From: Pocillopora verrucosa
Lineage: Eukaryota > Cnidaria > Anthozoa > Scleractinia > Pocilloporidae
DNA length: 64,000 nucleotides
Reading direction: 5' to 3'
Assembly (NCBI RefSeq): GCF_036669915.1
Contig: NC_089319.1
Coordinates: forward strand, 12,883,971 to 12,947,970
Shown: one piece after another, positions 4,120 to 36,500 of the stretch
Numbering within the stretch: the first letter of the stretch is position 1
Layout of the letters: each line of letters starts with the position of its first letter
Made by a program: the position numbers and the translations under genes
The notes under the pieces: generated by a model
The model's database searches: none
What the model saw: only the letters and a program-made list of their open reading frames with translations
Told to the model about the DNA's origin: nothing

Positions 4120-7100
4120 TTAGAAGTCATTATCACTGTCATTAAGACTGTTAGCCTGAGAGCCGTCGTCCCGTCCTTCCCCGCGGCCATCTTCCATATC
4201 GTCATCATCGAGAAGTTCGTCTTCATCGTCATCAACACCAATGTCGCTCTCTCCTGAAGAAAGTGAACCACTTTCATCCTGAAAAAGACATAAAAAAAAA
4301 TTTATGAACAACTGAGGCTGAGCCGACGTAAAATGAAAGTTGGAGAAGGCTCGATGTGACAATCAATCTATGAAGGAAAGTTCATGGCAAAACAACAACA
4401 ACGAAAAGATCTCACTTCATCAGAATCAAGCCCTCCTCCCATGGAACCGAAGACTCGACCACCAGCTTCGGCAGCTGAAAAGACAACAAAACAAAAACAT
4501 TATCCAGACGTAAACTACACATTGTAAGTAAGGGCCTTTCCCCACTAGCGGACAAAACTAGAATTGTCCCGACAAAATCAAAGGAAAAATTTTATCATCA
4601 CTAATTTTTGTTTCGTCTGTTGCATCCGCTTTCAAAATTTCAAAGCCGTCAAATTCCGTCAGCGCCTGATCTGTTCCTAGGACCGGCCAGCATAGTTGCC
4701 AAAGGATTCCACGTCCAATTTCCAGGATTTACCCTAATTCGTTTTCAACATTTTAGAATCCCCGAGGTTTGAAACGAAAGACATTTTTTCCTTTCTATTA
4801 AACTGATTTTAGTTCAATTACACGCTGGTTGTAGCTTCCACGAGACATGATCAATAAGTTTAGCATGGTTTTGTACACTCAGTCGCTTTTGTTCAGTGTT
4901 TACCCAGGAAAAATTTTATCGGCGGCGCGTTTGAAGGTTTGTCCGCTTTTTGGCCAAAATTTGTCAAGTCGTGATAAACCATTCGCACTCTTAAAATGTT
5001 GGTGGTGACAGCAAATTTGTCTGAACAAAATAGTTTTTCGCGGATGCGGAAAGGCCCAAACTCAATGAAGTAGGTTGGGATAACACTGCACAGCATGCCA
5101 TGGTAACCTTTGTCTAAACCAATAAGAAATTAATCTACTCAGCGGGGTACGAGGTAATTCTCCTTCTCCCGCGCTTATCAGTTGAAATTTCCAGCGCTTA
5201 GAGACATCACGTCACGTGCTTGACATCTGTTGTATGATCACAGGAAGACCATACTATAAAATGTGTTCGTGTTAAAAATTGTTGACATGAGACGAACAAA
5301 ATCTATGAGGGTTATGAATTTGTGATATTTTTCCGTCCTTGTGGGCCATTTGTAGCGTCTTTCTGCGAAATAACTTTTGACCGGAGGCCATGAAAGCGAA
5401 GAAATACCACAAATGCGTCGTTTAACATTTCATTTAGCTTTATCGAAATGATTCAGACCGAGATGTTAGATAGATATGCAACTTTCAGAGCTTAGTATAT
5501 AACCCTCATAGCTTTTTTTGTCTCATGTCAACAATAACAATTAATAGTTAGCCACAAACACATAGTGGGAAATTTGTGTCACTGATGACAGTCATTCACC
5601 TTGTGGTCTGGTAGCCTGTCTTGTATTGTTCGCCTCAACAACAATTTCATCATCATCGTCACCACCATCCAAATCTCCCAGTTCATCTCCAGCGTCAATC
5701 CCTTGGCCATGGTCTGCAGTTTGCATGTTTCTGATTGTTGCTTCAGACTCCTAAAAGAAAGTGAAAATAATTTCATAAACAACACAGAAAAATTAATGGC
5801 ACATTCTGATTTGCCTTCATGTAACTTTGGGCTACTGTTGGTTGGTTATGCAATCTAAAGGATCATGAATAAGCAAAAGTCAAACATCACCTTGTTTTAG
5901 CCTTAAACTCCCATGAGTGACCACAACAGAATTTCTCCTTACAATATCAATACTATACTCAAGCAGACAAGTGATGACAATAAAGAAAAATATCAACAGG
6001 GGGATTTTTAGTTGATCTAATACCAAATTCTCTAAGCTAACATTGCAAGAAATGTATGGTAGACAGTAAGGAAAATTACTAATGAGATCTACAGAGTGAA
6101 TGGATTAATTGGCTACACTAACTTTCAAATGCTCCTCTGATTTGAACAAAGATTTGTTTGTTTGACCAATCAAAAGCAAATTAAAATGCTTGCCTCCTCA
6201 ACTTTACAGCTGAGGAATTACGTGGGCCTAAATCAAACAGTAAACTGAAAAAAACTACAACAGTTTAAAATCAACAGTAATTATATGCTTTTTTTAACCT
6301 CAAATCTGTCTCTCTCAGCCCTGTTAATGTCTTCCAGTAGTTGCTCCATGTAAGCTAAATTGCGATGCTTTTCCATGAAAGTCTGAAATGAAATTTATTT
6401 CATTAAAAAACTGTGATCAGATTCCCTTATGAGAAAGAAGAACCTTCTAAAATTTGGCTGGCTCCCAACATCTGGCTTTGTAGCTCATTCGGTTAGGTAG
6501 CATTCACCTAGTATCTGAGAGGCAGGGTTTCAAATCCTGTCCAAGCCTGAATTGTTTTGGGCTTCCTTCTGCTTATTCTTGCAAGGATGATGTCATTGCT
6601 CAAAGATTACACTAAAGATGTCAAATCAAACAACACTAAGCTACTGAATGTAGAGGATTCTTTGTGGGTAATTAGCATTGCTTTATCAATTCAGTTTGTT
6701 TAGTGAATATTGATCTTAGTTCGGGACAAAAAGGAGTGGTTATTTTAATGTAACAAACTTGCCAACAATCAAGAGTAACATAATCACCTCATATACTTTT
6801 TTGAGTTCCTCTTCAAGTTTTTCATACTCGTCCATGTATGCTGGCCTACAGAGATTGGAAAAGAGTAGCTACTTAATTTATTTTCAAAAAAACCTTTTCT
6901 TCATAAAATATCAGCTTGTCAATTAGAGATTGCTGAACCAATTAAAAGCCTGATAGAATGATTGCACTTCTAACAATGGGACATGAACTTATCATAGAAA
7001 TATAGCAAAGACTTAAATCAAGTACAAAAAACCTCTCAATGGTTTACCATGGACCCTTTGTTTGTTTTTGTAATTTTGAGTATTTGTCATGGTTTGATTT

Positions 7101-10100
7101 CATCCAAGTTCTTTAAAAATTTTCTTTCAGATTTTTGGTTTAAGCACATTATCAGACAATTTACAATACCACATCCACATATTAAATTAAGGACAAGAGA
7201 ATTTAGAGCCAGAATAATATTGAACCCAAACATAAGAGGTTCAAACATAAAAATAAAAGACAGCAAACAAAACAGCATACAGCTTTTATCATCTAATAAT
7301 CTGATCCTCACATGGACTGCCCAATTCTTGAATTTTAAAGAGGGAACAACTGTACCTGACAGTTTCTAAACTTCGCAGTCTTTTCTGGTTCCTCTCCAGT
7401 TCTTGTTTTTTCTTGTCTATTTTAGCTTCCAGATTAGCTTCATCAGAAGCAATATTGTCCAACATTTGATTGGTCTTCTTTATGTCATCCTTCAATAAGA
7501 ATGGAAGGGATTTGGAATGTAGCACATTTCCTCCAATAAGCAACCAAATGCTTACTTAAAATTTCAGCTAAAAGTGGGAGGGGTGCTTATTAGAAGGAGG
7601 GCACTTAATCGAGGGGGGAACTTAGTATTCTCCTGTAATGATTCCCCAGTAGTTGAACATTAAAATGTTATAAATAAAGTTACTGGTTGCATGAATGGGC
7701 TCCAGAAAGCACTCTGTGGATGGCTAAGATCACTCCCTCCTCTCCCCCCCTCCCCCCAAAGCATACCTCCACTCTCCTTGCATGATCCACTCTTCCAAAA
7801 AATAAGCCTTCAGTTTTTCTAATAAATTTACTCAAATATACTTTCTCAAATAGAGCAAAATTCAATTGAAATAGCAAAGTACAAAACAACTCATATGCTT
7901 ATTTTTGTTTTCATTATCATCATTCCTAACAATGGGAGAACATACAAACAGGTGCACCTCCTATAAGCTTGAAAATATTTCAAAATTTTCCTTAACTTAT
8001 AAAACATACCACCACACTGGGAGAAATTCTCAGTTAGGCAGGAGTTATACTTAGTGAAACAATGTCTTGGAAAGCTAAAAAATAGAAAAAAGTACCCTAA
8101 TGATCTCTGATTCATCAGTACCTTGACTGCAGCAACACTCTTCTTGATACCGCTTTCCAGCTCATTTAATTCAAGAGGCTTGGCTATAGCATTTGTTCTT
8201 AGTTCCTGATATTTAAACAAAGCCAAGTAAGCCAAGGAATTGAAGTTATCATGATGGAGAAATGAAGCTAATGGGACCTTGAATGATATTAAAAGACTTT
8301 GCCAGATCACACATTCATTTAGTGATCTGTAAAATTTTTGAGAGTTCTTGAAAGTTAAACTGGGAAGACTCTTAAAATCCTTAAAAGATCTGAATCAACA
8401 TCCTATCTCTGATCCTAAAACATTCACATTTTCACTGTTGAAGATGCCCTTGCAAGAGTAAATTCTAAAGATATACCTGAGGGACTCACAGATCAAGTTG
8501 CATTCTGATTTCACCCTCAAAACTAAACTTAATGGTCAAATACACCATAAAAATAATTACTGACTTACCCTTAATTCCACTTCTTTACCAAGCAAATCAT
8601 AAAGTGCAGCTCCCCTTGATGTTATCTCAGATGCAAGCTGGCGAGATGCCTTTAAATCAGTTATCTGAAAAGAAACATGAATGGTTCTCAAGCCTACCCA
8701 TGTATTGCATAATCAATGAGACAAAATATAGTTGGCCTTGAACACTATTTAATCTAATGCTCATCATTCGTCAACATAACACATAAGTTTCCAATTTAAA
8801 AGTTGCTATGGTTGTTTAAATGATAGGTTGATGAAAATCATCCATTGAATAAATTAATGATATCCATTGGAATTGTATGTCTTGATGAGCTGAATTATGC
8901 ACACATTTGGCAGGTTCTTACTCATGATCTACTGGACAACACACTCATTGATGACATTACCATTAACAATTTTTTGCTCCATTATTACATAAAACAAATA
9001 GATTCCACAATGCCATGGTTCTATAAAATAATAAATCACAAGTTGATGACATCAAATATGGTAAGAACATCAGTGAGACACTTGGCTGCATCTTGAGTGC
9101 TACTTTTCTGATTTTAACTAAATTTTATCATCATCTGTGATATAGCACTGAACAGACCTGCAGGAACATGGAAGCTTTGTGTTAAGGAGTTAAAAAAATG
9201 TATTGTGCCATCATTCCAACAGATAGCAATTTTCCTGCCCAAAATACTTTTCATCTTTAACACTTGAGTCTGTTAAACTCCAAACTCTGGTCACTTACTC
9301 TTGATGATATATCAAATGTCAAGGAATTGACATTGGACTCTTCAGCAGCCTAAAAACAAGAAACAAAATGTTATAGTTTTTTTATAACATCTTAAACTAC
9401 TGTTTTCTACTAGGAAAGGGCTACATGTTTACACTGTATTAACTTAAAGACGGCATTGTCACTGTTTACTCCTGAAAGAAAAGTGGGAATCTGAAATGGG
9501 AACAAACATAGGCACATTTCAACAATGCTCAAACCTCACTAACCTCATTAAACCTGGATTTATTTGAAGCAAAAACATAAAATAGAGTTAAGTAAATAAC
9601 TTTTAAGGCTACCTCATTTCCAGCATTAGTCTTCATTGCACTGTACAGGACAGATGTAACTTTGAGTAATTCCTTCACAGCATATCCATCTGCACCATAT
9701 AGCTTCTTGGTGTTTAGCTTAATATGGGCTTTGGTTGCCTAATATTGTATGAGAAAGAGATCAGGTGACTATTGTGAGCAGTGGATAAAGGGGGTAAATT
9801 TCTAAAGAAACTGTGGTGCTGCATTGGTGGGAAAATATAACAGGGTAACTTAGCATTATCAACAAGTTGATAACGTAAATTAGTCACCATAAAGAGTTTT
9901 AAAAAAACTGAAGTTTTGAGTGTAAGCCTTTATCAGAGCAAATGGCTCTGAGGAAGGGCTGACACTTGAAACATCTGCTTTTAAATTCTTTGAGGTGGCT
10001 AATTTACTTTATCAACTCATTGATAATACTTAATAAGTACCCTATTGTAAGCAGTGCTTGAAAAGGTTAGCACCTCACCTCTGTTAATTCTTGGGAAACT

Positions 10101-11873
10101 TCAAAATCAATCTTAACATCTCAGAGGTGTTTATCATTTTAAGTGAAATTCCCCATTTCTTGAGGGGTTCATACACTATCTTTCTTATTTCTATCTTCAA
10201 TTTTATTAGTAATGATTATTATGATTATAACAGTTATGAGTACAGTGTTAGGAGTATTTATTATGTCTGCACTTCAGCACTAGTTTTAGATTCCTCTTAG
10301 TCAACAAACAGAGTAATAATTACATGGTATACACTGTAGAGGGCGGAAAAGGAGGAGTCCTGATCATAATTCTCATAGCAATTTTAGAAAAATTCACACA
10401 TCACATGTGCTTTAAAGTATATTTTGCTTATCATTAAGCCAAAAGGGAACTCTTAAAATCTCACCTTACCTTGGATTTCTGTAAAATTCGTGCATCACAT
10501 ATAGACCCCTCTACCACTCTCACAGTACTTCATAAAACTGATTGGCATAAAAATTTATAAAACTTTCTGGAGACTGATGATGTCAAACATACCATAAATT
10601 GAGCCACTGATTTAATGAACAGCACTCTGTCCTGTTCAGTATCAACATCCATGGGTAATTCCACATTGGGGTCATACCTATATATAACATGCCAGATAAA
10701 TTTTTAGCCCATAATCATATCATTACACTATGTGACATTCTTTGGCATTAGATGAGTAACTTAATATTCACTCCCCCACTCCCGACTGCCGGCAGTAGAC
10801 CACTGCCAGCAGTAGACCACTGCCAGCAGTCGTTTGTATGGTGCAGGCAGTGGTCCACTACAGGCACCATACAAAGGACTCATTCACAACATTAACATTA
10901 CAAACAAACCAAACAGAAAGACCTAACTTCACTAACGGATTGAGACCAACCAATTACTACCAATCTATGCTACTTGAGTCTTACAGCCAATAACATCACA
11001 GCAAAACTGACCAATCAATTTATGCAAACTGGACTAAGCACATTCAACTGACAGCAACTATTTCCTTGACTCTGATGATGACTTCCAGTCAGGTTGTCAA
11101 AACGTCAGTCACCACTACCGAAAACAGTCCTTCTCATGACCACACTTACTGGACAATCAAACCACACTATTACACATAACAATCATAATAGACAAACAGT
11201 ATTTATCTTTTAGAGCAAATATTTAGGGCTATATGTACTACACTCTTGAAAGGTAACAAATCTAAGAGCTTCTTCGTTTATTTCATGTAGAAATCTATAA
11301 AAACTCAGTTGGGGAAGGATTTCCATACGACCCCAAAACAAAGTTGTAGTGCCGAAGGCAATCTACTGTTTTCGCCAGTATTTTCGTTATCCAAAGACTA
11401 ATTAAGTAAGGATCTCGGCAGAAATGTTGCCAAAATTCATTTTGCATAACAGTTAAACCTTCACGTTTCATCTTTGTCCGATTAAGTGGCGTTGAATTAA
11501 TTATAATCACCTATAAACCTGAAATCTTACAGGTTCAATTTATTTTCGCTTGGTTGGCCACCTTCTCTCGACGTTTAACTGTTTTTTGTAGGGTAATTAA
11601 AAAAATAGTTACTTGACCTCTTGACAAGCCACATCAAGACTTCAGCAACCAAAGCAAAGTTTGGAGAACGAAAGTTCTCCATGGATATCAGCCGAGGGTA
11701 ACCCAAGGCACGCATCATTTCAGTGAAATCTGCGAAAACACAACCATTATTTTCATTTAGATCATACCAGAACAGGCAAAATTTAAATGCAGGTGAGAAG
11801 TATAACCTCAAAACTTTCAAAAAACAATAAATACTACCGATTTTCACTTACTTCTCAAGTCTCTATACGACAT
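4120..11873 (-). CDS. CLUAP1: CLUAP1 / IFT38, intraflagellar transport complex B subunit
   Basis: Thirteen exons encode 406 aa (human about 413): 11873-11852, 11729-11618, 10677-10593, 9738-9613, 9349-9299, 8664-8569, 8205-8122, 7489-7356, 6845-6788, 6382-6299, 5750-5600, 4474-4416 and 4278-4120. All have GT..AG introns and all phases close. The N-terminus after MSYRDLRN is nearly identical to human CLUAP1 ([20 protein letters not shown], then a conserved VAEVL.WLVKR). Further conserved blocks are [44 protein letters not shown] and [11 protein letters not shown]. The C-terminus is acidic and ends SDNDF, as in human. The fold is an N-terminal calponin-homology-like domain followed by coiled coil (about residues 120-290) and an acidic tail. 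IFT38 is a peripheral subunit of IFT-B, needed to build cilia and bound to the IFT20/54/57 group. Initiation at 11873 is fixed by homology. Confidence 0.97.
5895..6110. repeat. Dispersed repeat, CLUAP1 intron 10 (same family as 60030-60260)
   Basis: The copy starts around CCTTAAACTCCCATGAGTGACC and continues in order with TACTCAAGCAGACAAGTGATG, GTTGATCTAATACCAAATTCTC and an AGTAAGGAAAATTAC tail. The same succession of blocks recurs at about 60030-60260 in a USP7 intron. This is typical of a small non-autonomous element. Confidence 0.65.
6474..6620 (+). repeat. tRNA-derived SINE, CLUAP1 intron
   Basis: The head GGCTTTGTAGCTCATTCGG resembles a tRNA 5' end with an A box. A B-box-like GGGTTTCAAATCC follows at about 6526-6538, then CCAAGCCTGAATT and a tail ending in CTTGCAAGGATGATGTCA. 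The layout (tRNA head plus unrelated tail, no intact cloverleaf) and the GCCTGAATT junction match a SINE family I recognise from coral genomes. It lies antisense to CLUAP1. Confidence 0.7.
9770..10045. repeat. Palindromic repeat with hammerhead-like core, CLUAP1 intron 3
   Basis: Two arms of about 85 bp are inverted copies of each other. The left arm has TCAACAAGTTGATAACGTAAA and the right arm has GTGGCTAATTTACTTTATCA. The right arm carries CTGAGGA (9948-9954) followed after a short hairpin by GAAAC (9968-9972). Related copies lie at about 18290-18410, 21990-22045, 22535-22705 and 24180-24380. Confidence 0.65.
10783..10876. repeat. Short tandem repeat fused to a hairpin
   Basis: A 17-bp unit, CCRGCAGTAGACCACTG, occurs twice and then starts a third time. 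It is followed by a strong hairpin whose outer stem is TTTGTATGGTGC paired with GCACCATACAAA (about 10831-10876). The hairpin's inner part contains the reverse complement of the tandem unit. It abuts the Penelope-like tail that follows. Confidence 0.7.
10870..11180 (+). mobile_element. Penelope-like retroelement 3' tail fragment
   Basis: The stretch contains CTGATGATGACTTCCAGTCA followed by GGTTGTCAAAACGTCAGTCA, a signature I recognise from the 3' ends of cnidarian Penelope-like elements. A second diverged copy lies at 19620-19740. No reverse transcriptase or GIY-YIG coding sequence is nearby, so it is a truncated remnant in CLUAP1 intron 2. The family name rests on recall. Confidence 0.55.
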
Positions 11874-12004
11874 TTTTGTATTCGTAACTTCTATTTTTCT
11901 TGATTGACCCAGTCGCGCATGCTTTCTGGGACACCGCTGGAATACTTAAGGAGTATTTGTTTACATGGTCCCTATGGAAACAGGATGAAAAAAGTGAAAT
12001 AAAG
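11874..12004. promoter_or_regulatory. Short bidirectional promoter shared by CLUAP1 and the TEX47-like gene
   Basis: The start codons of the divergent genes CLUAP1 (-) and TEX47-like (+) are separated by 131 bp, so both 5' UTRs and the core promoter must fit here. No TATA box is evident. An RFX X-box lies towards the TEX47 side. Joint control of two ciliary/sperm genes is the inference. Confidence 0.75.
11968..11981. promoter_or_regulatory. X-box (RFX transcription factor site)
   Basis: The 14-mer GTCCCTATGGAAAC fits the ciliary X-box consensus GTHNYYATRRNAAC at every position. It lies 23 bp before the TEX47-like start codon and 95 bp from the CLUAP1 start. RFX factors drive ciliary genes in animals, and CLUAP1 is a core ciliary gene. 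Binding itself is inferred. Confidence 0.75.
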
Positions 12005-15000
12005 ATGGCGGCAAGTCCTGGAGGTGACGAAGATTCGGTGTTCGATGCAGGAAGGCTATCTTTATTTGATCTCATTCTAGAGCGAACAAGGGCTCAAAAC
12101 AAGGTAAATAGCTTAAAATGTATACGATGTTAATTTTTCTCTTGGAATTCCGAGGCAAACAATTTGTTCATTTTAGATCGATTTGAACCCTCAATGTAAT
12201 ATTTTCCTTCCAATTCATGCAGGTAATAGGAAAAGCGAGCTAACTTATTTCCCAAATTTATTTTTAGAAACAACTTGTTCACCGACTAGTCTATGTGTCT
12301 AAAATCCGCCAGGATGTTAGTGACAGGAAAGAAATTGGAGGTGGTTATTTAGTTTTAAAGTAATATTTTAGTTTACCTATCTTATCATTGTTAATTAACA
12401 ACAAACTAATCAGGTCTTATTGGAAAGTTTGCCACACCAAAGTAACAAAATTTAAAGCCTCACTTAAGCAAGAAATATTAATTAGTTTTCTCGCTTAAGC
12501 TTGACTCGCATGGAATTAGCTAGTAGATGTTTGTCAACTGAATGTTTACAGTCCTTCTTTTAATTGATTTATGGCAATCAAGCAGAAAGAGCATTGGATG
12601 ACTATTTAAACGGATAATAAAATTCAAAGCCTTTTTCTTTAAAAAAAAAAAAACAGGAAGAAAATCACTCATTTGACAATAGTTTATTTCTTCTTAGATG
12701 TTTTTGTTTCATTTTCTAGTTTGTGCATCAAAAATAATCATATTAATAGAGAACAAAGGGAAAAAGAACAAAACAGTTTAAAAGAAGCAAATTTTCAAGA
12801 ATAGTAAAAAATGTACACACTCTCTTAACTTACAGTTCAGGATATTGATGATTGCTAATTATTTTAATGAATGAATATCTCTGATACTTTTATGTTTTAC
12901 ATTGAATTGGTTACAACTTTGTATGATGCATAGACATACTTTGTGTTGTGATAAGGCAAACAGTTGTCAATCAGATGATGGAACCCTAATGGGAAAAAAA
13001 AAAAATGCTATTTGATATAACTTCTTCATGCCTTATTTGTAACCTTGAAATCTTTATTTTATTCTCTTATCATTTTAAGCTCACTATGAAAGAGTTTTTA
13101 AGGAACTTCAAACACAAGTGCATGGAGAGGCAGTGACAGGACTGCTTTTGATATATCCTGTTCATATCATTCATGTTGTAGAGGTGAGAGCATGTCTCAA
13201 ATTCCTTGAATTCAAAGGAGATAATGTTGTATTTCAACTTATATAGATAAAAAATTGATACACTAAATGTTACATTTGCATGTATGATAGATAAAGTTTC
13301 TCCTTTATTTTTACTTTGGAATGAACTAGAGTCCAAAGGGGTGTTTCTATATAAATTTAACCCTGAAAATGGATATGTTAATAATGTTAAGTCAGTTGAA
13401 TGAAAATCAATGTGGCAAAGGGGCTCACCGGTATTATGACATTGCTCTCTTAAACACCTCTGTCTTTTGGGTGCAATGACTTGTTAAGTGTTTGGTATGT
13501 ATTCTATGTTAATAAAGAATTATTTTTATTTCATATAGTTCTAGTTACTCAAACTGGTTTGAAAAATTTAAACAAGGAAAATATTGATTTTGCAGACTTC
13601 CTATAACATGCTCCTGAAGGTTATCAAAGAGTTAGAGGAGGATGAACAAAGTGCCAGGTACAGTTGAAAAAAATCTGACCTCTGCATTAACACTTGAGTC
13701 ACAAAATAGATTATTAACTACAAAACAAAATATACTATCTGTAAATTAACATATTAAACTGGTGAAAATATTTGCTTACAGACAGATTTTGAAAGAGAAG
13801 TGACTGAGAAAATTTCTGCAGTTGCATGTGTGCAAGGAAAGGACAGAAGTCCTTCTTTTTCAGTTTCCAGTAGGCAATTTTACAGTTGTGTACTTAGTTA
13901 CCAAGCCTTTGAGTGAGGCTGAAGGCGACCTTGTTGTGATAGAGACCAGTATCTTGTTTTTATGATAAAAAAAAAATTTACATTTGAAAAGCAGCAACAT
14001 TTGTATTATAACAAGGTCACCGTTAGCCTCACTCCTGTTGAAAGGCTTGGCAACCAAGCAACCAACTGTCCAATAGACTATTCATTTAGTGAAAATCATG
14101 TTATTGGGTTATTTGCAGTGGCATGCTGTTGAATACAAAACTACTTGTGTGTACTGGTGATGTATCCTTTTACATCATATAATTACAGAATTAGACAGCA
14201 TTCAGTTTGAAAACTTTTGGCAAATTTTATTTTGAAGATTGGTTAGTTTTTTTGTTTTTACTTAGAAATAACAGAGAGAGAAATGTCTCAATCAAAAGGT
14301 TGCTAAATAGTAGACAATTTGTAAGAATAAAAATAAAAAGTGGCAATTAGTCACTTCCTGACTTTTCACTAAATTGAAGGTCACTGAAATTAATTTTTAG
14401 GGTCACTATCATGTAGGGTTCTTCTTGCAGGAACTCAAATTATTTCAGCCATTCTTAACAGCTGCAAAATTATCATGAAAGGCAATTTAGAGCTGTGTGG
14501 TTATCAAGTCTATGGCTAACTGTCATAAAAAGGGTTGAAAGATTTTGGCAAATGATAAATATGGGGTGTTAATTTGTAAATGTAATACTGTGTGAGAACT
14601 CAGTACTTATACAAACAGTAAATAGGAAATGGAGGTTCTTATATGGTAGGCAGTTAGGTAAAGTAACCTTAACCCATCAAAGCTCAACAATCGTCTCTTT
14701 GGACAATGGAGTTTTAGAACTCTCAATCTTGCTGTGTCAAGGATGCAGGAATTCACCACTAATGAACCTATCGATGTTGTGGTTAGTTATAGAAATCATT
14801 TTCATTAAAAATACCTGGCTGGTAGTAAGCTGACTTCATGCCAAGTGTTAACTTCAACTTATGGAAGTTATCTGTCCATGTATCTATAGAAGGTTCTCCC
14901 TTATCAGCAGTATGATATTGTGTGACAATTGTACATCTAGAGATAATGGCCATCAGTGGATGTGTCTGGATCAGCCAATCAACATTAAGTTCGACCATGT

Positions 15001-18000
15001 GCTCGAGTTGTTGTTGTCCGTTTGACAATATGGCCATGTAGCATTGCTTTCTTCCAGATTAAAGTTCCGTTGAGTTTACTGTTTATCAAGCAACGAGTCC
15101 TGATTTATACAGTGGGTAACCATTGGTGGGCAGAAATATTCAACATATTTAGTAATTCATCATTTATAGAAGGTACCTGTAGAATTGGAAGTTACCTTTA
15201 GGCAGATGGTACTCAATGATGGGTGTTCATAAATGCACAGGACAAAAAGTACCAATTCATAGGTATCCATCAATGAGAAGTACCTGCAGTCAGATTAATG
15301 AAGATACCTGTGAAGTTTATTTATGACATAAATTACAGCAGCGTAGGTCTCATTTGCCTTTTAACCTTTTTATCTTTTCAGGTCACAGAGGCATTAACAC
15401 TTATCATTAAGCTAGCAGAATATTTGGCTAAACTACCAAAGGTTGGAATATTTAATATAGAGCATCATCAATAGTCCTTCTAGAAGCTACATGCAGAAAG
15501 AAAGGAAATTACTATCAATGCTACCATATACTTCTCAAGGAATATGTCCACTGAATTTTGAATCCCCTAAAAGAAGTCAGAACCTATGATCTGTGATCTG
15601 CACACTCCATGACCCCTGTACTAGAATAAAGAAAGTGCATGACTAAAGTGCAAAAAGACCTTTGGAGTTCTATTCTGCCACACATTGATAGGACAGTCTG
15701 GCTTTATTTTTCTGCAAGCCTCCTCCCATTTCAAAATTTAAATTTTGGTTTTTGTTTAAGTACCTTATTATGGTGTGGGGAAAAGGAATGATTCATTTAC
15801 AGCAGTGACCTCTTTCACTGATTGACTAGATTCATTTGTACCAAAACAATCCATGATATACAGCTTATAATGCAGACTAGAGTTTTTTATTGTTAAAGGC
15901 ACAGGATAGGGGAAAGGGAATGAGCACCAGGGATAGAAAAGTTATATTGAACACAGATGAACATGATAATTTTTCTGTTCCCTTTGCACCCACTTGAAAT
16001 GCATTATGCAGGATTGTATGAGAGTAGATGAATTTTTAAGAGAAAGAATTTTTCAATCATGAAGATCTAAGGAATATCAACCAAAAATAACAATCAGTTG
16101 GCAAATTTTTTAAGAAAATGTACAGTGAATAAGGCTTGTGTGTAAATTTGTTCAAAAATTATGTACCCATGCAGACTTTATGGACTTGATAGGAGAGAAA
16201 CTTGTTTAAAAGTGTTGTTTGCAGTCATGTTGGCACATTCTGACATCTGTCATGATGGTGGTTGGATGTTGACATCCTTCCCATAGACTACAAGGATATT
16301 TCTGAATTGTATTATATCATTCATTTGTTTGTGCAAGCTACTGACACCTGTTTTAACTGTGCACTCTTCAAGTTTATCTTAGTTCACCTTATAACTTACT
16401 ATACAGTAAATTATTTCCAGTGGTTTTTGTTGACTGTCAGCTGAGTCATCACTTGTTGTTTCACTTGTAGATCAGCTTAACTAATACCATGGACCAGTTA
16501 CCTGAAAAAGTACCAGACCTGTTAGTAAGACAAGGTAATTAAACGGGTGCCAAATGTGGGTGTCTGTAAGTTTTGAGCTATAAAACTTGGACATAGGGTT
16601 CCTAAATGTCATCCCTGATACCTGACGATCATCAGTTCGCAGCCCATGAATAGTCTGTCACATCTTGTTCTATTTTGAAAGAAGTTAGCGAGAGACTTAC
16701 TTATAACTTGTATACTTGTAAAGTAGTCTCTCTTATCTAAGGCAAGAACACACAGAAAACAGAAGATTTCTGGGAACATATCAGTGGTTTTAGTATTATT
16801 TTCTTAAGGACCTGCTTCCTTTGTCAGATCTGATTGAGTACACTTTGGGCTCACAAGACCTCAACACACCTTCACAGTACCTGAAAAGATATACAACACC
16901 AGTTGACATCACATTGGAGAGTGGTAAGGCAACATGAGCTGAGTTATTACTTTTATCTTGTTTGAAACTAACAAACGAAATGGAAAAAATTTAGTTGCCT
17001 GAGATGTATGCGCTCATGTAATGAAGTCTTTGGGTTAATGCTCCTCATCCGCTTGAGATGGGATCAACCAATTGAACGGCCTGTTCCGGGCGTTCAGCGG
17101 CTAAGTGAAGAAAGGTGGTTCGGGTCATGTCAAACCTCCCTCAATTTTACACCCAGCCACTACTATCGCTTCATTTACTATTACGCTTCGTTTTACAAAC
17201 TGAACACCTGGAACAGGCTACCAAATTGGACTTTCGTCAGAGATCTGTGATTTCAGCTGCTAGTTTTAAAAATGAGGCTTATGAAATGGTCGAACTCGTT
17301 CTCTCGTAGTTGTATATTGTGGGGACATGCCCATATCTTGAAAATTGCCCTAGAATGTCAGAGTTGCCCTCGAAACTTTGTTTCTTGGTTGTTTGTTATA
17401 CGTTGTGGCTGATTCTCAGTAACGTCGGAGTCGTTATACTGGAAACGTGAAAGAGCGACACAATTACTAGAAAATCAAAGCGGCGGAATCAGTTGTAGAG
17501 TACCACTGTCGCTTGTCAGACTCCATCGCTTGTGATGTATGAAACTTTATCATTAAGGGCCTGTTTACCTGGAGGTGGGGAAGCCCAGGTAGGTGAGGTA
17601 ACCTGCCTAGGTGGGGTAACCCGCCTGTCCATATAGTTTCTTACTTTATTTTGATCACGTTTACATGATAGGTGGGGTGACCCGCCTAGGCGGGTTGCTC
17701 AGTCTGCTAGGTAGGGTAGGGTAGGGTAACCCTGTAGGGTAGGGTAACCCTGTCAGCCGGGGTGACAATTTGCCATGTAAATGTGTCAAGGTGGGGTAAC
17801 CCGCCTAGCCGGGGTCGCGTTCATAGCAAAAAGCTCAAAAGCGAAATATGTATGTTTTAAAATTTTGCACATTTCCTAGCCGTCTCATGGCAGAAATCAC
17901 CAGAAACCGCAACGGACACACAAGGAGTGTAAAATGTTCACATTTCGGAATATTTAGCGTTATAAATCGATCATATTTGGTTTCCCAAACTATTCCGTAT

Positions 18001-18793
18001 AACGCATTAAGTCAACGGTTCCTCGCGAAACACGACGCGTGACGCTTTCATGAATAAATACATGTGTTCGAGAATTAATCTTTCGTCTTTTTCGAGATGT
18101 GAGCTTGGGACGCCTCCGCTCAAACTCCTTAATTGCAAGTGCAACAACCACCTCAAGAAACCTCACCCTAGTGCCCCGGGGTTGTAAGATTGCATGTAAA
18201 CGCGTTTTTCGACCACGGCTAGGTGAGTTACCTCACCTACCTGGGGTCCCCCACCTCCATGTAAACAGGCCCTAAAAGTCGTATCCATCGAATGGAGTGA
18301 GAGCTCGTCAACTGGTTGACGAAGGGCTCACGCTTGAAACGTTAGCTTTAGAAACTCTGTACGGTGGCTAATTTACATTATCGACTCATTTGATGAAACC
18401 AATTTAACTTGTAATAGCCTTAGCCTCACCGACGTACGACCACTGTTTCTGTAGAACTTACTCTCGATTGTTCTTTGACAGGTTGGGTTTTACTGCTTCT
18501 GCTTGCAAATCTGAAAATTTAGTTTCACTAGATCGGAGTCATAGGAAGAAGATAGGACCGCTCTGATTCTTCTGACTCCTATGCCGTCTAGCTTATGGCC
18601 CCGCTTTTAAACTGTTCTGATTTTATGTTTTCACTTGGTCGGAAGCGCCCTTACGACTTCCTCTACAGCTCCAACTCCGCTGTTGGTAAAACTACTCTAA
18701 ATCACATTACTTTTTACATAACATCTGGTTTAATTTTTTTCTTCAACAGAACTGGCCTGGCCCATGCAGACTAGATTGTTCCCTCTAAGTTAG
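12005..18793 (+). CDS. TEX47: TEX47-like protein with a BLUF-type fold
   Basis: Ten exons encode 247 aa (human TEX47 about 253): 12005-12103, 12268-12340, 13080-13183, 13596-13657, 14119-14161, 14683-14781, 15382-15441, 16471-16534, 16828-16923 and 18750-18793. The start ATGGCGG has a good context. The C-terminus (Y.TPVDITLESE..WP) matches the end of human TEX47. Residues about 36-140 follow the BLUF plan: LVHRLVYVS (Tyr42), AVTGLLLIYPVHIIHVVE (76-92), a helix to about 110, and RLFGQW (131-136). In bacterial BLUF photoreceptors the Tyr is essential. The glutamine of the FxQxLEG motif seems to be His89 here, and the flavin-contacting Asn is not evident, so flavin use is doubtful. Human TEX47 is testis-expressed and poorly characterised. 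The head-to-head pairing with CLUAP1 and the X-box suggest a ciliary or sperm-flagellum role. Confidence 0.85.
17557..18272. mobile_element. Harbinger-like MITE in the last intron of the TEX47-like gene
   Basis: The 716-bp element begins GGGCCTGTTTACCTGGAGG and ends with the near-perfect inverse (CCTCCATGTAAACAGGCCC). It is flanked by TAA on both sides (17554-17556 and 18273-18275), the 3-bp duplication typical of PIF/Harbinger elements. The sub-terminal parts carry many copies of a GGTGGGGTAACCCGCC-type motif and a GTAGG-rich block (17698-17755). No transposase is encoded. Confidence 0.8.
18285..18410 (+). repeat. Partial copy of the hammerhead-like palindromic repeat
   Basis: It contains TTGACGAAGGGCTCACGCTT then GAAACGTTAGC, followed by GGTGGCTAATTTACATTATC, as in the other family copies. 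Only the right arm is present. It lies just after the Harbinger-like MITE. Confidence 0.6.
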
Positions 18794-22139: not shown

Positions 22140-22299
<160 letters not shown>

Positions 22300-28954: not shown

Positions 28955-30834
28955 CATATATATTTTGTGTAGAAGGTCAGTGATTCTCGAATCTTTTATT
29001 GCGTGGCGACGAGTTTTATATCATTTTTTGCCGCAAAATGTGAATGGACCATTTACATTCCTTGAAAAAAGTTGCAGGTCCCAAAAAAAAATCCTGAAAT
29101 AACAGTTGCGACGTCTTTTTACCTCTAGAAGTAACGTCAACTTTAATTCATTAGGTGTACAATCGCATAGCCAATAAAATTTTCGGAATCTGATTGCCAG
29201 ACTTACAGTTCTTGTACCGTTCGGTAACCCACCAAACAACGCTCGCAAAAGCCCTGTTAATATTTAATAAATTTGAATGATTTTTTTCCCTGCCATTAGA
29301 CAACAGATTTGACGCATAAAATGAAAAAATGGGACAAAATTGCTTTTATGATCCTTATTTAACTTTAGTTGTCACAAAGTGTACCCACAGGTTTCAAAAT
29401 TGTAATTAATAAATGACAACTATATGTACCGAGAAAGAGGAGGTAGATATGACAACTGGGTGCCAAGAAGGATTTGTATAAACGTCAACTTTTACCAATA
29501 GGGAGAATAATTGAATCTGCATAATCTACACAAGCTTGATAAGCTTAAGTGGCAGAGCAAAAATTACTTTCGTTCGAACAATATCTGTAGCTTATATAGG
29601 CCAGAAATTAAAGTGATGAAAATCATTCGCAGAAAGCGATTTCTTTCAACCGCCTCGCTAGCTTCCTTGCAGATTGGGTGAACTTTGTTGGATCTATGAT
29701 ATATACAGTTTAATCTACCGTTCTGATTGGTTAATTTCTACATCAGTATGTCTCTGTTCGCGCGCTTCGCGATAGGTTCGGCGCTAAATAATTTACAATG
29801 TTCAGTTTTCTATAATAATCTACAAAACGTAGAGACATGAAGGAATTCCTTTAATCAAACTTCTTGTTTCAGTATGCTGCCCGGTTGTTCAGTCATTCAA
29901 TTTTTTTTCTCATAATTGAAATGATGTTACGAAACGTTGCGGTTTTAGTTTGTATTGTTTGAAACAGTCGCATCGTTAATTGAACAAATGTCTTCGAAAG
30001 TAAACCTGACGAAACGAGTTCAATTTTTTTGTTCTTCAGCTGCACGGACGAGAAAAAAAACTTGGTCGATTACCTCTAAGTTACCCAATCAGCCCGCGTA
30101 AAGAAGGGAAAGGTCTAAAAGCTTTTTTAAGTGATGTAAACTTTTAGATAGGAATCAGTCATCCTCAATATGACGCACTCGTCGTGTTGACATTCGAATA
30201 AAATCCATTTTGACTTAAAAGCATTTTAATTTTAAAATGAACCATTAAATTACTATTCTGCTTTAATTTTGAATCATTACTGCTTAAATATAAAGAGGCA
30301 TAAAAGCTATGCTGCTGAACTAGGAAATCCTGAGACCTCGATTACACATTTACCAAATCTTTCTGAGAAACTACTTCCTACATCTGGCTTTTTTAAGGCT
30401 GTTATGGAGGACAACTTTCAAAACAAATTGTACAGTCCAGCAAATATCATTCAAAAAATTAACAGAAGGATCTTATCATCAGAAATTTTATCTGGAACTA
30501 ACAAGGCTGTAAAGAATCTAACCCGCATCGAGATGATCATCTCCATCAATTGTTGTTTGTTTTCTATGTTTGACAATGATCAGTCGTCAGATTTCGAAAA
30601 GTAAAGCGCTTCCGACAAGTCTATTTGTTTAGTTTATGGTAATTTTTCTCTGTTTCATCTTTAAATAATTTGATTTACTGACTAAAAACGGAAATCATTT
30701 ACCGTGGGCACATCTTCCCATAAGGCATTGAAATGACGTGAAGGTGTGAAGTGTTGTTCTCTTGGGTCACAGAACATATTTCTTGCCCACCTTCCCTCAA
30801 ACTAAAGGCTTTCTGGACTTTCAGTTCATCTACG
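28955..30834. other. Intergenic region upstream of the first GPCR gene
   Basis: Nothing here is recognisable as a gene. One open frame (30269-30604, 111 codons) has a Kozak-poor start and no family signature. The 5' UTR and promoter of the GPCR gene should lie in the last few hundred bases, but no clear element is seen. Confidence 0.5.
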
Positions 30835-31779
30835 ATGGCCAATAATTTATCAGACCAAAATGAAACATTGTTCCCCTGCAATTACGATCCATCGCTTCTT
30901 CTTCAAGTACCACCCTATCTCTACTACACCTACATTGTCACAGCAGCTTTCAACGCGGTCTTTTCACTAACAGCTTCCATAGGAAACGCTCTAGTTTTAA
31001 CAGCCCTTGTAAAAACCCGAGCTCTCCACTCGCCGTCTAAAGCACTCCTTCGAAGTTTGGCTTTATCCGATCTTTTTGTCGGTTTATTTGTTCAACCCGT
31101 ATACATTGCATATTGCCTCTCTGGTGTAGTAGGAAACTCGTGGATTCGATGTACTTCCTGGATTGTCTACCCTCTTCTAAGTGATTACTTCGTAGCAGTC
31201 TCGTTTTTCACGATGATTACAATAAGCATTGACAGATTTCTGGCTTTACACCTTCGTGCCCGCTATCGTTCAGTCGTCACAATAAAAAAGGCAAACATCA
31301 CCGTGTTGTCTCTGTGGATAACCAGCTTAATCTTCCCAATTGCACGCTTACTGGCAGGAAAGATCACAATAGTTCTTTCTGTTTCATCGTTCTCACTTTT
31401 TATAGTGGTACCAACTTTTACGCACTTCAAAATTCAACGCATGCTTCGCCGACAAGAAAGGCAGGTTTTCAACCAGTTCAACCAGTTTTATCTACACAGA
31501 GAGGAAAGCTACCTGTCTATTAATAAGTACAAGAAGTCCGTTGCTGCAATGCGCTATGTTTATGTCGTTCTTATGTTGTGTTATATACCCATAACCTGTG
31601 TGGCCATTCTGTATGTCAAGAATGACTCATCCCCACTGATTCTACTGTCATTGGGTAATTTTGCGTTCACATTACTTTTCGTGAACTCTTCGTTAAACCC
31701 GATTTTGTATTGTTGGCAAATCAGGCAGGTTCGTGCAGCGATGTGGATGCTTATTAATAACTTAAATCCTTGTTGTTAA
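30835..31779 (+). CDS. Intronless class A (rhodopsin-like) GPCR, copy 1
   Basis: A single exon encodes 314 aa with seven hydrophobic segments. Hallmarks are TM1 GNALVL, TM2 LALSDLFVG, the TM3 end SIDRFLAL (DRY replaced by DRF), TM6 CYIP in place of CWxP, and TM7 NSSLNPILYCW (NPxxY). The N-terminus has Asn-linked sites (NLS, NET). The short C-terminus ends in CC, a likely palmitoylation site. The second extracellular loop is very short and lacks the usual Cys. The first in-frame ATG at 30835 is chosen as start; a longer frame exists upstream only from non-ATG codons. It belongs to an anthozoan-expanded group, distantly like amine, adenosine or melanocortin receptors. The ligand is unknown. Its nearest relative in the window is the GPCR at 47.3-48.3 kb. 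Confidence 0.9.
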   Translation: MANNLSDQNETLFPCNYDPSLLLQVPPYLYYTYIVTAAFNAVFSLTASIGNALVLTALVKTRALHSPSKALLRSLALSDLFVGLFVQPVYIAYCLSGVVGNSWIRCTSWIVYPLLSDYFVAVSFFTMITISIDRFLALHLRARYRSVVTIKKANITVLSLWITSLIFPIARLLAGKITIVLSVSSFSLFIVVPTFTHFKIQRMLRRQERQVFNQFNQFYLHREESYLSINKYKKSVAAMRYVYVVLMLCYIPITCVAILYVKNDSSPLILLSLGNFAFTLLFVNSSLNPILYCWQIRQVRAAMWMLINNLNPCC

Positions 31780-33505
31780 CCTTTAAGTTACTCCAAAAGA
31801 CATTGTGTAAGGAGTGGAGTCAGGAATGGATGAATTTCATTTAAGATCAGCAGTGTCGAACTCCTGCACGAAGGCAAAAGTATATCCTCGTCATGCCCTT
31901 CTCCCGTAAACCGCCATGCACTGCTACCGGCCTGTCCTTCAAGTTTTTCCGCAGCCCTCCCAAACCGACTCCACTCCCGGCTTTGTCAACTTACAACTGT
32001 TCTTTGGTAAGTACACGACGACTGAAATGAACTCTTTGTTACCCCGCAAAAATATTTCAAAACAGGAAAAACAGGGAAAAAAAAAGCTCTACTGGTAAGG
32101 GGTTGTACTTTTTGGTGTATTTGCTTTCTGTTCGATTTTGCAAAACATTAGAAACATTCTTCGTGTTTAGGAGAACACTGCAAAGCGCTACGTGACTAGA
32201 AAAACAATTGTGTTTCTAATGAAAATTGAAAGCTTTCAGTTACTCATTCGGCCTGAATTCTGATACGCTGAAATATTAAACAACTGTAATTGTCGAAGCT
32301 ATTTTTTCCTGACAATTATTGTAATGCGAAAACTGATCGGCCGTGTGTACAGGGAAAAATTAATTTAAATGGTATTTAGGCCATAAAGGAATATTGCCTT
32401 GTGATGCAAGAACATCTCATGACGTCTGTCTTTCAGTAAAATAAACTGTCATCTGTTTTACTGTTATTTTGTGCCAATTTGATAACTCGAGAGGAAAGAA
32501 TGGATTTAAAATCCTGATGATTTTCCACTGTATTACATTGGGCTAAAATCATCTAGTACTTGTTACATTTTACTGATTTATTTCTTATCGGTGAAGTCTG
32601 GCTCTTACAGATAAAAGTTGCCTCACACAGAAGACATTGCCCTGTCTCTATTTTTCTTCTGTTTCCCTTTCTTCTGTGTGCTAACTAATAGATGTTAAGT
32701 GTCATCCGGTGTGTTAACAAAATAGAGACCTTATAAAGCTTTCTCTTGTCAACTTTTGTCTTCTTTTTCAAACACAGCTTTTCAGCTCTGATTAAACTGA
32801 TCCCCTACTACAAATGTGAGGTGACACAAATGAGCGGGAAAAAGAGGGTTTCGTTTTGTAAGTTCTGACAATGAAAATTGCATTAGAGAATTTTCATAAA
32901 AATAACATGCTAAATCTCCTCCCTCAAAAATTATTCGCAGATACTTTGGCTAATTCCTTTCGCATCCCATTCGGTCTCATTTCAAATATGGCGATGACTC
33001 CCGTGGAGACTTGGCCCATAGAATAAAGATAAACTTATAAAACCAACCCGATAATCGCATATCCGATTGCTTCCAAGTGTATTGTTTCTGGCACTCAGAA
33101 GATCCATTTCCCGACGTCCATGCCATTCGTTATTTGTTTTTTAGCAATTACCGCTGTCCGTTAGACAGGATTTTTAATCAGTTTGTTTGGTCAAACATCC
33201 AGAGGTGCTAAGCTTATAAATTCAAGAAGCTTATAAATTCAAGAAGATATCTCCAATGGAAACATCAAAAGGAAGAAGAAAAAGTAAGGTACACTACTTC
33301 GATTTCTTTGTCACAGCCGCGTTCAAACTGGGAACGATAACGGTATCGGTATTCGTTGCACAGCGGCAGTTATTATTTTGTATGCGCTGTTTCCAGTAGC
33401 AACGCGCGCCAGACTAAAACTAAAATCAAGAGAACATAAAAGTGTGTTGGTTGTACGGTTTCTGTACTGTTTTTGTTGTATTTGTGCACCTAATAACAAG
33501 TCGAC
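31780..33505. other. Intergenic gap between GPCR copy 1 and CFAP52
   Basis: I see no gene. The last 150 bp before 33506 should hold the CFAP52 promoter and 5' UTR, including the X-box-like site given separately. A 19-bp direct repeat (AAGCTTATAAATTCAAGAA) occurs at about 33210-33247. Confidence 0.55.
33389..33403. promoter_or_regulatory. X-box-like site upstream of CFAP52
   Basis: GTTTCC-AGT-AGCAAC has a perfect right half-site (RGYAAC) and a left half-site with one mismatch to GTNRCC, with a 3-bp spacer. It lies about 100 bp before the start codon of a ciliary gene. Confidence 0.5.
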
Positions 33506-36500
33506 ATGGGTGATATAGAACCTCTCGACCTTCATGCAATCATTGGTTTTGCAGGTACGCGAAACTGTATGATATTTAGCTTCACCACAACTGTGATAGC
33601 GCTTTGTAATTTTCAGCGATCTTTCATCCTGAACTGTCATTTAGACGCTGCTAAAATTTCATTTAAATTTCATTCGCATGTTTTTGTAGGTGAGGTTCCA
33701 GGAGGTTTGCTGGTTAACAGTGACAGAGAACATCTTATCTATCCTCTTGGCAACACAATCGTCGTCGAGGAAATTAAAGAGGACAAAAAACCAGCTTCTG
33801 GTGGGAGAGGATCAGGAACCAAAGGGGGAACCAAAAGTAGGACTACCCCAGAAGATCCAAAGATGCGTCAGAAGCTGTTGTCAGGACACAAAGAAAGATG
33901 CCTGGCTGTTTCTTGTCTGGCAGTCTCCAAAAGTGGAAAATACCTTGCATCGGGTGAAAAGACTCACATGGGATTTCAGGCCGATGTTATTCTTTGGGAT
34001 TTTGAGAAGAGATCCATTAAACATACCCTGGATCCACTGCATAAAGTCAAAGTAGAAGCGCTGGCTTTTTCTCCAAATGACAAATATCTGGTGTCCCTTG
34101 GTGGCCAAGACGATGGATCGTAAGTCTATAAAAGTAGATTCTCTATGTGATTGAATTTTATCTTTGGTTTAATGTTTTCTCTAGTTTGTTTCGAACTGAT
34201 TACTAATTACATCCTTATACCTAAAGCGCGAGGGAAAATTTGATTGAACCAAGGTTGAAATTCAGTTACAGCATCTACTTTTTTCCTAGTGATAACGACA
34301 CTCTAAGTGTGAGGAAAGGCCATTTATAAAATTTGGGAGACTCTCGTTTGAAAATGTGAGACTGAGACCAAACAATTGTAGCACATAACCCCTTATCTTT
34401 GTCATAGCTTTCATCGCCTAATTGCAAGTACACTCAACGATGGGAATTTTTCTGTATTGGAGTAGTAATACTCTCTTTTGCACATATTTTTGTAAATTTA
34501 ATGCCCTCTTCATCCCATTATTTTCAAGAAATGATGAGTATTTACAGATATTTTTCAGTAATTATGATAATAGTTAGCTACTCTGGGTACCTTTTGACTG
34601 AGGCTCCTAAGCTTAAACCCCTGAAAGAAATGCAAGGCTTTCAGACTAAAATGAGCTAAACTATACAGGAAGGAGAGTACAAGCTACATCTGAGACAGTT
34701 AGAAGGATCTCAGTTTAGCAAAGGTTTACTGCTTTCTTTTAAAGGCCTTTGACCCCTGATAAAATTAGTAATGAAGAGCTTGAGCTACCAAAGAACAGGA
34801 GTTGAAAGTCAGGATAAACAAGTGTATTACATACTGTTTGGATCAGAAAAATCTTTGTACCAAAACATTATATCATTAATACCAACAACAGCCATTAAAC
34901 AAAATAACTGAGGTGACAAAAAAGACAGCTCTCAAATTGACTGAGTAGAAGCTTTTTGTGATTTCCTTCCAAACGCTTGTCAGAACCAGAGAAATTCAAT
35001 ACAAGATACTTTATGTAATCTATTTTTATACATTAAATGGAGTGATTTTTAGATTCAAATTATTTAAATAATCTCCCATGATGTATCTGAGACATTAGTA
35101 TACATATTCTCCATACAGTTTGTCATACATTTCCTAAGGTGCTGACAAAGAAAATTTTTCCCAAAGTCAGGAGCCTCTTTAGTTGGTGATCATTTCCTTA
35201 TAATATTCTCGTGATCTCACCAGTAATTTAGAGGAAATACTGTTGGGAGAAATCAGATGGTAGTCACTCCAAGGGTCAAAAGGTTACGATAAACACTGTT
35301 TATACTATTTTTCACATTCTCTATGTGATATGTCATGTTGGAACAGTGCTAAAATAATGCTCTAATCAGAATAAAGCCTTGACCATTAAAACATATTTCT
35401 TTTCCAAATTTTTTTCTTCTTTTGCTCACAGAATTGTTGTGTGGGATGTCAAGAGTGGTTCAGCTATTTGTGGAAGTGTGGCAGGTGCTCCAAGTGCAGG
35501 GACTACATTTGCAGTAGCTTATGCTAACTTGAGTGATGAGATATTTGTCACTGGTGGAGAGTAAGTACTGCTGATGCTCCTGAAATCTTTAAAGTTTTTA
35601 TGATTTGATGGTTATATGTTGGAACACTGCAGGGCTGAGAATTTGAAAGAAGACAATAGTGTTAACTATGGCCAAAAGCTATTAACCATCCTAACATCAG
35701 TATACATATACTCAATACTATTTGCCATACATTTTCTAAAGTGCTGACAAGGAGAATTTGATTATCATTCAAGGGCTTCTTTAAGTTGGTGATCATATCT
35801 TTTATTCTCATGACCTTAATGTGTGATTTAGGGGTGATATCACTAGAAGAAATTCGATTGTAGACACTCTAGATTGTAGACACCCCAATGGGCTAAAAGG
35901 TGAAAGTGACTGAACTGGATCTGAAAGTAAATAATTTGTATAACAGTAAATTGACAAAATACAGTTGAACCTGTATTAAGCGGCCCCCTATTGAGTGGTC
36001 ATCCTGTATTAAGGGGTCAGTTGTGGTAGTCCCAAATTTATTTTCCCTAAAACATTGAAGTTTTCACTTCTATTAGGCGGTCACCTCTAGTAAGCAGTCA
36101 TGGTCACCCTTAACTGACAAGTCCCAACAGTCTCTTTCTATTATCTCCCACTTTTATTGAATGGTCACCTAACATGGAACCACTCAAATAAATCAAGAAC
36201 AAGCTTTTAAGTATCTTACATCCATGTTTATCTCTCAAAATCAATGCTGTAGATGTATTTTTGAGTGAGTTTTTGTACATTGATTGATCAATTATGGCAT
36301 AAAATGGCATTTTTTGCATTTCATTTTTTTTTTTTTAAAAAACCCTATTCTGTGGAACCTTTATTAAGCGGTCACTGTGTCATTCCCCTTGGGTGACTGC
36401 TTAATGCAAGTTGGACTGTAAATACAAGGATGTAAGCCTTTGTTTATTTCACAAGACTTTTTCTTATTACATTTCCAGTAATACCTTGAGAGTTTGGGAA

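Follow-up and report, generated by a model that had tools for sequence, protein, structure and literature searches.

Genes and elements at the locus

The window (the whole stretch of 64,000 nucleotides of Pocillopora verrucosa DNA that was analysed) contains two genes, CLUAP1 and TEX47, read in opposite directions from a short intergenic stretch in which several candidate promoter elements lie.

4120..11873, minus strand: CLUAP1 (IFT38), spliced gene model of 13 coding exons and 406 aa; coding exons 11873-11852, 11729-11618, 10677-10593, 9738-9613, 9349-9299, 8664-8569, 8205-8122, 7489-7356, 6845-6788, 6382-6299, 5750-5600, 4474-4416 and 4278-4120
11874..12004, no strand: stretch of 131 bp that separates the start codons in the two gene models, putative shared promoter
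11915..11922, no strand: NRF1-like GCGCATGC, 2 in the window
11958..11964, plus strand: forkhead core TGTTTAC, 3 bp 5' of the X-box-like site, 19 in the window
11968..11981, plus strand: X-box-like 14-mer GTCCCTATGGAAAC (GTTTCCATAGGGAC on the CLUAP1 strand), weak by matrices
12002..12012, plus strand: AAGATGGCGGC over the TEX47 start codon, sole copy in the window
12005..18793, plus strand: TEX47, MOT7 orthologue, gene model of 10 coding exons and 247 aa; coding exons 12005-12103, 12268-12340, 13080-13183, 13596-13657, 14119-14161, 14683-14781, 15382-15441, 16471-16534, 16828-16923 and 18750-18793 (the last placed by homologues)

The start codons at 11873-11871 (minus) and 12005-12007 (plus) bear out the claim of the initial annotation that they diverge 131 bp apart, a distance within the 1 kb by which bidirectional promoters are defined. 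The identities of CLUAP1 and TEX47 are confirmed. With a partial model as query, CLUAP1 matches the Pfam family Cluap1 (PF10234) at 5.3e-64 and 216.6 bits against a cut-off of 25.8, and the spliced protein is 100% identical to the listed Pocillopora verrucosa CLUAP1. The match of TEX47 to PF24787 (8.7e-64, 215.1 bits against a cut-off of 25) was scored, as were the PDB figures given below, on a model with a different last exon.

The intergenic stretch has 38% G+C and 4 CpG. We take the forkhead core to be a possible FOXJ1 site; none was found in the 400 bp upstream of CFAP52 and of four tektins, so that the copy at 11958..11964 may be there by chance. The element GCGCATGC is presumably of NRF1 type and the one over the TEX47 start codon, we assume, of YY1 type. 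By eye, a divergent open frame upstream of IFT57 (L054) opens with AAGATGGCGGAC, which resembles the AAGATGGCGGC of TEX47, and it is possible from these letters that IFT57 and this frame form another head-to-head pair with an IFT gene. Further observations made by eye in the window concern short repeats in CLUAP1 intron 2 (10780-10880; CTGCCAGCAGTAGACCA and its inverted relatives), a long TA-rich simple repeat at 22140-22295, and two long open frames resembling rhodopsin-family receptors at 30742-31776 (plus) and 47297-48307 (minus).

Strength of the X-box-like site

The 14-mer at 11968-11981 fits the loose consensus GTHNYYATRRNAAC at every position, a match with a chance of about 0.001-0.004 per 131-bp stretch. 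In the 64-kb window this consensus occurs 2 times against 0.63 expected, a number reached by 20 of 100 shuffles, and the second match (44068) lies inside the last coding exon of CFAP52. It also occurs 2 times in 200 kb of other sequence of the same genome, and genome-wide, counted per strand, 3389+3282 times against 1920+1949 for the reversed pattern.

The site scores lower by matrices. With a matrix of 26 Drosophila X-boxes, taken from Table 2 of PMC2375033, it reaches 6.9 bits against a training range of 13.8-23.0 and ranks 65 in the window; a site as good is present in 0.11 of 131-bp stretches. A small matrix built from the six good coral sites described below gives 10.6 against a leave-one-out range of 12.6-17.5; by chance, 0.032 of 131-bp stretches would contain a site as good. 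By inspection, three mismatches separate the site from the X-box form GTNRCC N0-3 RGYAAC, as it appears in the available text of Coyle (2023; PMC10530576), and the strict dimeric form is absent. The description of the site in the initial annotation as a consensus-perfect X-box is thus literally true for all positions of GTHNYYATRRNAAC, but it overstates the strength of a site that falls below the ranges of both the fly and the coral matrix. The accessible part of Laurencon (2007; PMC2375033) also cautions that an upstream X-box alone does not predict RFX control.

X-boxes at other promoters of the genome

The coral genome has 9 matches to RFX DNA-binding-domain exons, and RFX is the top de novo motif in the promoters of Nematostella orthologues of ciliary genes, according to the available text of Quigley and Kintner (2017; PMC5245798). 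The strongest site of the window belongs to a third gene, which starts about 15 kb past the end of TEX47.

33389..33403, plus strand: X-box GTTTCCAGTAGCAAC in the CFAP52 promoter, rank 1 of 255,950 placements (16.2 bits), start 117 bp upstream of the ATG (33506)
33506-44118, plus strand: CFAP52 (WDR16), axonemal protein

A second X-box-like site, of rank 156, was observed upstream of CFAP52 at 33249-33263. A calibration set of ten ciliary promoters was formed by CFAP52, chosen as it lies in the window, and by four tektins, PACRG, RIB43A, IFT20, IFT54 and IFT57, chosen as Pfam family matches near the protein start. The starts of the last five were deduced from open frames, PACRG with an upstream exon placed by eye, while IFT57, with four ATGs in frame, was scanned from the innermost, and the upstream scans spanned 300-600 bp. 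For three of the five proteasome controls, in whose open frames no ATG was found, the sequence preceding the domain exon served instead.

In this small test, whose score thresholds (9, 11.2 and further steps) were fixed with CFAP52 and the tektins already inspected, a good site (at least 9 bits, at most 300 bp upstream) was present at six of the ten ciliary promoters and at none of the five proteasome controls, where the best placement reached 5.9 bits. The background in 20 stretches of 10 kb from the same genome is 0.123 sites of at least 9 bits per 300 bp, by which six of ten promoters would be reached by chance with a probability of 4.7e-4. The loose consensus itself was found at three of the ten (two tektins and PACRG; chance 2.8e-6, or 1.8e-5 with the genome-wide density) and at 0/5 controls.

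The good sites start at -117 (CFAP52), -120, -102 and -97 (tektins), -159 (PACRG) and -145 (RIB43A), and that of CLUAP1, at -108, falls inside this band of -97 to -159. Of the plausible coral X-boxes, that of CLUAP1/TEX47 is the weakest, yet it is rightly placed with respect to CLUAP1. The set splits by class: six of the seven axonemal promoters have a good X-box, the exception being one of the four tektins, against none of the three IFT promoters. No dimeric X-box was present within 400-600 bp upstream of IFT20 (L041), IFT54 (L053) and IFT57 (L054); the top placement at IFT54 reaches 7.2 bits (at -118), slightly more than the 6.9 bits of the CLUAP1/TEX47 site. Upstream of IFT57 a single half-site-like ATGGCAAC was seen by eye.

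Possible traces of the site in relatives

The promoter letters of relatives were obtained by back-translation of over-long gene models, whose extensions could be spliced; a genomic reading of them is supported by the P. meandrina extension, which equals the translated upstream DNA of P. verrucosa. Among the 15 CLUAP1 proteins read, three have an upstream extension, and that of Nematostella alone reaches the site. The Nematostella model (P0042) has 35 extra N-terminal residues, which back-translate to GTNGTNATGGCNAC at -102, a reading compatible with the X-box consensus. Shuffled extensions gave a match as good in 0.2% of cases anywhere and in 0.01% near that place; the wobble bases of GTNGTNATGGCNAC are unread, and with random ones 9% would fit the whole consensus. 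It is probable from these letters that Nematostella has an X-box near -102 of CLUAP1.

On the other side, 27 extra residues of the Montipora TEX47 models align to Pocillopora DNA up to TCCCTATGGAAAC (0/300 shuffles as good). The models P0004, P0006 and P0007 have this extension in common and count as one observation, and P0010 starts elsewhere. The back-translated Montipora 14-mer at the aligned place is TTYACNATGGARAC, which retains the right half but has lost the first G of the left one, and an X-box in Montipora appears doubtful. The expectation that the 14-mer would be kept in relatives is not supported by the two readable ones, whose back-translated letters, GTNGTNATGGCNAC in Nematostella and TTYACNATGGARAC in Montipora, differ from the exact 14-mer.

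Age of the gene pair

Linkage was read as the presence of TEX47 and CLUAP1 on contigs of equal size in annotated assemblies, an indirect measure, as equal-sized contigs could differ. The species compared were those visible in both protein lists, that of CLUAP1 being the best 120 of 2002 matches; among the matches listed, no further stony coral was comparable in both. The two genes are on equal-sized contigs in Nematostella (16,388,311 and, in an older assembly, 610,570), in Actinia (320,029) and in Actinostola (1,034,888), with consecutive tags in the latter (QZH41_013991/013992). Equal contig sizes and consecutive tags argue for a tight pair in coral and sea anemones. Holothuria (58,244,725) and Argopecten (51,162,219) each have one chromosome-size contig value for both genes, and the bilaterian linkage would extend to this shared value only. 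Equal-sized contigs were not seen in Ylistrum balloti, Diadema antillarum, Acipenser ruthenus and Microcaecilia unicolor, some of whose assemblies are fragmentary. The tally among the matches listed is thus three of three sea anemone genera and two of six bilaterians. These comparisons support a divergent CLUAP1-TEX47 pair that is real and apparently old. That a head-to-head pair is kept in relatives holds as far as the neighbourhood in three sea anemone genera is concerned, the orientation having been read in Pocillopora only.

TEX47 as a member of an axonemal protein family

The coral TEX47 sequence matches bovine sperm TEX47 (9fqr_H0, 1.3e-30) and an axonemal chain of Chlamydomonas (8glv_D9, 7.6e-15) in the PDB; the latter, whose entry names it an inner-arm dynein f/I1 light chain, is taken to be MOT7. 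A structure model was made for P0001, a protein 94% identical to coral TEX47 (pLDDT 82.5), and its first three Foldseek matches are axonemal: 8glv_D9 (TM 0.72), 9fqr_H0, TEX47 (0.69/0.89), and 9y6s_7M of Leishmania (0.69). By this predicted structure, coral TEX47 has the fold of axonemal MOT7/TEX47, whose tether/tether-head complex also includes CFAP43 and CFAP44. In the accessible text of Leung (2025; PMC11779644), TEX47 is the orthologue of MOT7 and a sperm-specific subunit of the tether/tether-head in mammals; that of Walton (2023; PMC10266980) names it as a potential homologue of Chlamydomonas MOT7 and places MOT7 at the centre of the tether/tether-head complex. As far as these sources go, the papers and the axoneme structures already establish a ciliary role of the TEX47 family outside vertebrates, and the suggestion that the coral locus newly places TEX47 in the ciliary programme there is out of date, given Chlamydomonas MOT7 (PMC11779644, PMC10266980) and the Leishmania axonemal chain of the same fold.

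After the axonemal chains, the next Foldseek matches of the P0001 model are bacterial BLUF photoreceptors, and BLUF is also a weak secondary Pfam match of coral TEX47. The glutamine and the tyrosine of the BLUF flavin site are the residues used in BLUF photochemistry. The glutamine column, located via alignment to PAC, corresponds to TEX47 residue 89 in exon 3 (13080-13183). In an alignment of 37 TEX47/MOT7 homologues, it is occupied by His in 34 and by Gln in 1, and the tyrosine is kept in 27. The His in 34/37 makes canonical BLUF light sensing by TEX47 unlikely, and in spite of its BLUF-like fold TEX47 is better not classed among the BLUF light sensors; if MOT7 has the blue-light role proposed for it, this may run by another route than the usual one of BLUF. 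In a search for TEX47 relatives as stray animal DNA, 46 stretches on genome contigs and 21 on viral contigs matched the pattern, and none of them encoded a relative.

Discussion

We propose, with a probability of roughly 60%, that the 131 bp form a bidirectional promoter of two cilium genes, in which RFX acting at a weak site raises CLUAP1 and probably TEX47. In cells making motile cilia or flagella, an RFX factor would bind the X-box-like site, which precedes the CLUAP1 start by about 100 bp, during ciliation, and its binding would open the promoter in both directions. CLUAP1, which acts as IFT38 in ciliary assembly, would be raised leftwards, and TEX47, of the inner dynein f tether/tether-head, probably rightwards. 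We infer both the binding of RFX at this weak site and the co-activation of the two genes, and the age of the site is deduced from back-translated gene models. It is plausible, from the arrangement of the letters, that one site drives both CLUAP1 and TEX47.

The alternative that the site serves one gene only, which by distance would be CLUAP1, with TEX47 transcribed from a start region of its own or through open chromatin that leaks in both directions, is unlikely, though credible. The position band of the six other genes suits CLUAP1 and not TEX47, and the Montipora TEX47 models extend upstream through the aligned place, so that TEX47 transcripts may begin upstream of the site. However, the gene class (axonemal 6/7, IFT 0/3) would assign the site to TEX47, and the pair stays together in the three sea anemone genera. 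Spacing (94 bp to the CLUAP1 ATG, 23 bp to that of TEX47) and class therefore point to opposite genes.

An ordinary bidirectional promoter of housekeeping type, with NRF1-like and YY1-like elements and a 14-mer that fits a loose consensus by chance, is slightly less likely still. Such elements are present at 11915-11922 and 12002-12012, 3-11% of 131-bp stretches contain a site that scores as well by matrix, the genome holds 6,671 consensus matches counted per strand, and IFT54, which was counted as having no X-box, has the 7.2-bit placement at -118. On the other hand, both genes are ciliary, the site lies at the usual distance, and the back-translated Nematostella model is compatible with an X-box at nearly the same place. 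That CLUAP1 and TEX47 are neighbours by chance, their control not being shared, is highly improbable: the different-sized contigs of Ylistrum balloti, Diadema antillarum, Acipenser ruthenus and Microcaecilia unicolor would agree with it, but the linkage in all three sea anemone genera listed, in addition to Holothuria and Argopecten, opposes it.

A more speculative reading, of low probability, is that the divergent CLUAP1-TEX47 pair is ancient: it would predate the separation of corals from anemones and may go back to the common ancestor of cnidarians and bilaterians. A single RFX site would then couple ciliary assembly through IFT38 to installation of the dynein-f tether-head; the pair would later have been broken up, with TEX47 becoming sperm-restricted in mammals. 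What is new is a conserved pair of an IFT gene and a tether-head gene, with an X-box that is probably kept in place. Both proteins are already known as parts of the cilium, which makes this a modest addition to a known pattern. The interest of the locus lies less in the motif than in the gene pair and how old it is. The 131 bp offer a two-way reporter for testing, in a non-bilaterian, whether IFT genes and motility genes are jointly controlled by RFX, and the pair gives a reason to seek TEX47 across all motile cilia of cnidarians and not in sperm alone. The literature search found no paper on bidirectional promoters of ciliary gene pairs and none with two of six X-box strings of C. elegans type; three papers bring CLUAP1 together with RFX and the X-box, PMC2873420 among them.

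The coral site resembles the X-box promoters of RFX, DAF-19 and dRfx targets in its paired half-site and in its position, some 100 bp upstream from a ciliary gene; in C. elegans, X-boxes are often found 100-250 bp upstream, according to the available text of Chu (2010; PMC2873420). It differs from these targets in being weaker than the fly set, and weaker than the six other coral sites, and in lying between divergent genes. Mammalian TEX47 is called sperm-specific in the accessible part of Leung (2025; PMC11779644). With MOT7 of Chlamydomonas and TEX47 of bovine sperm, both of the inner dynein f tether/tether-head, coral TEX47 shares the Pfam family and, as predicted, the fold. PARK2 and PACRG have a bidirectional promoter, by which an axonemal gene shares its control region with another gene. 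The coral pair likewise joins an axonemal gene to a neighbour through a putative two-way promoter, with the difference that both of its partners are cilium genes.
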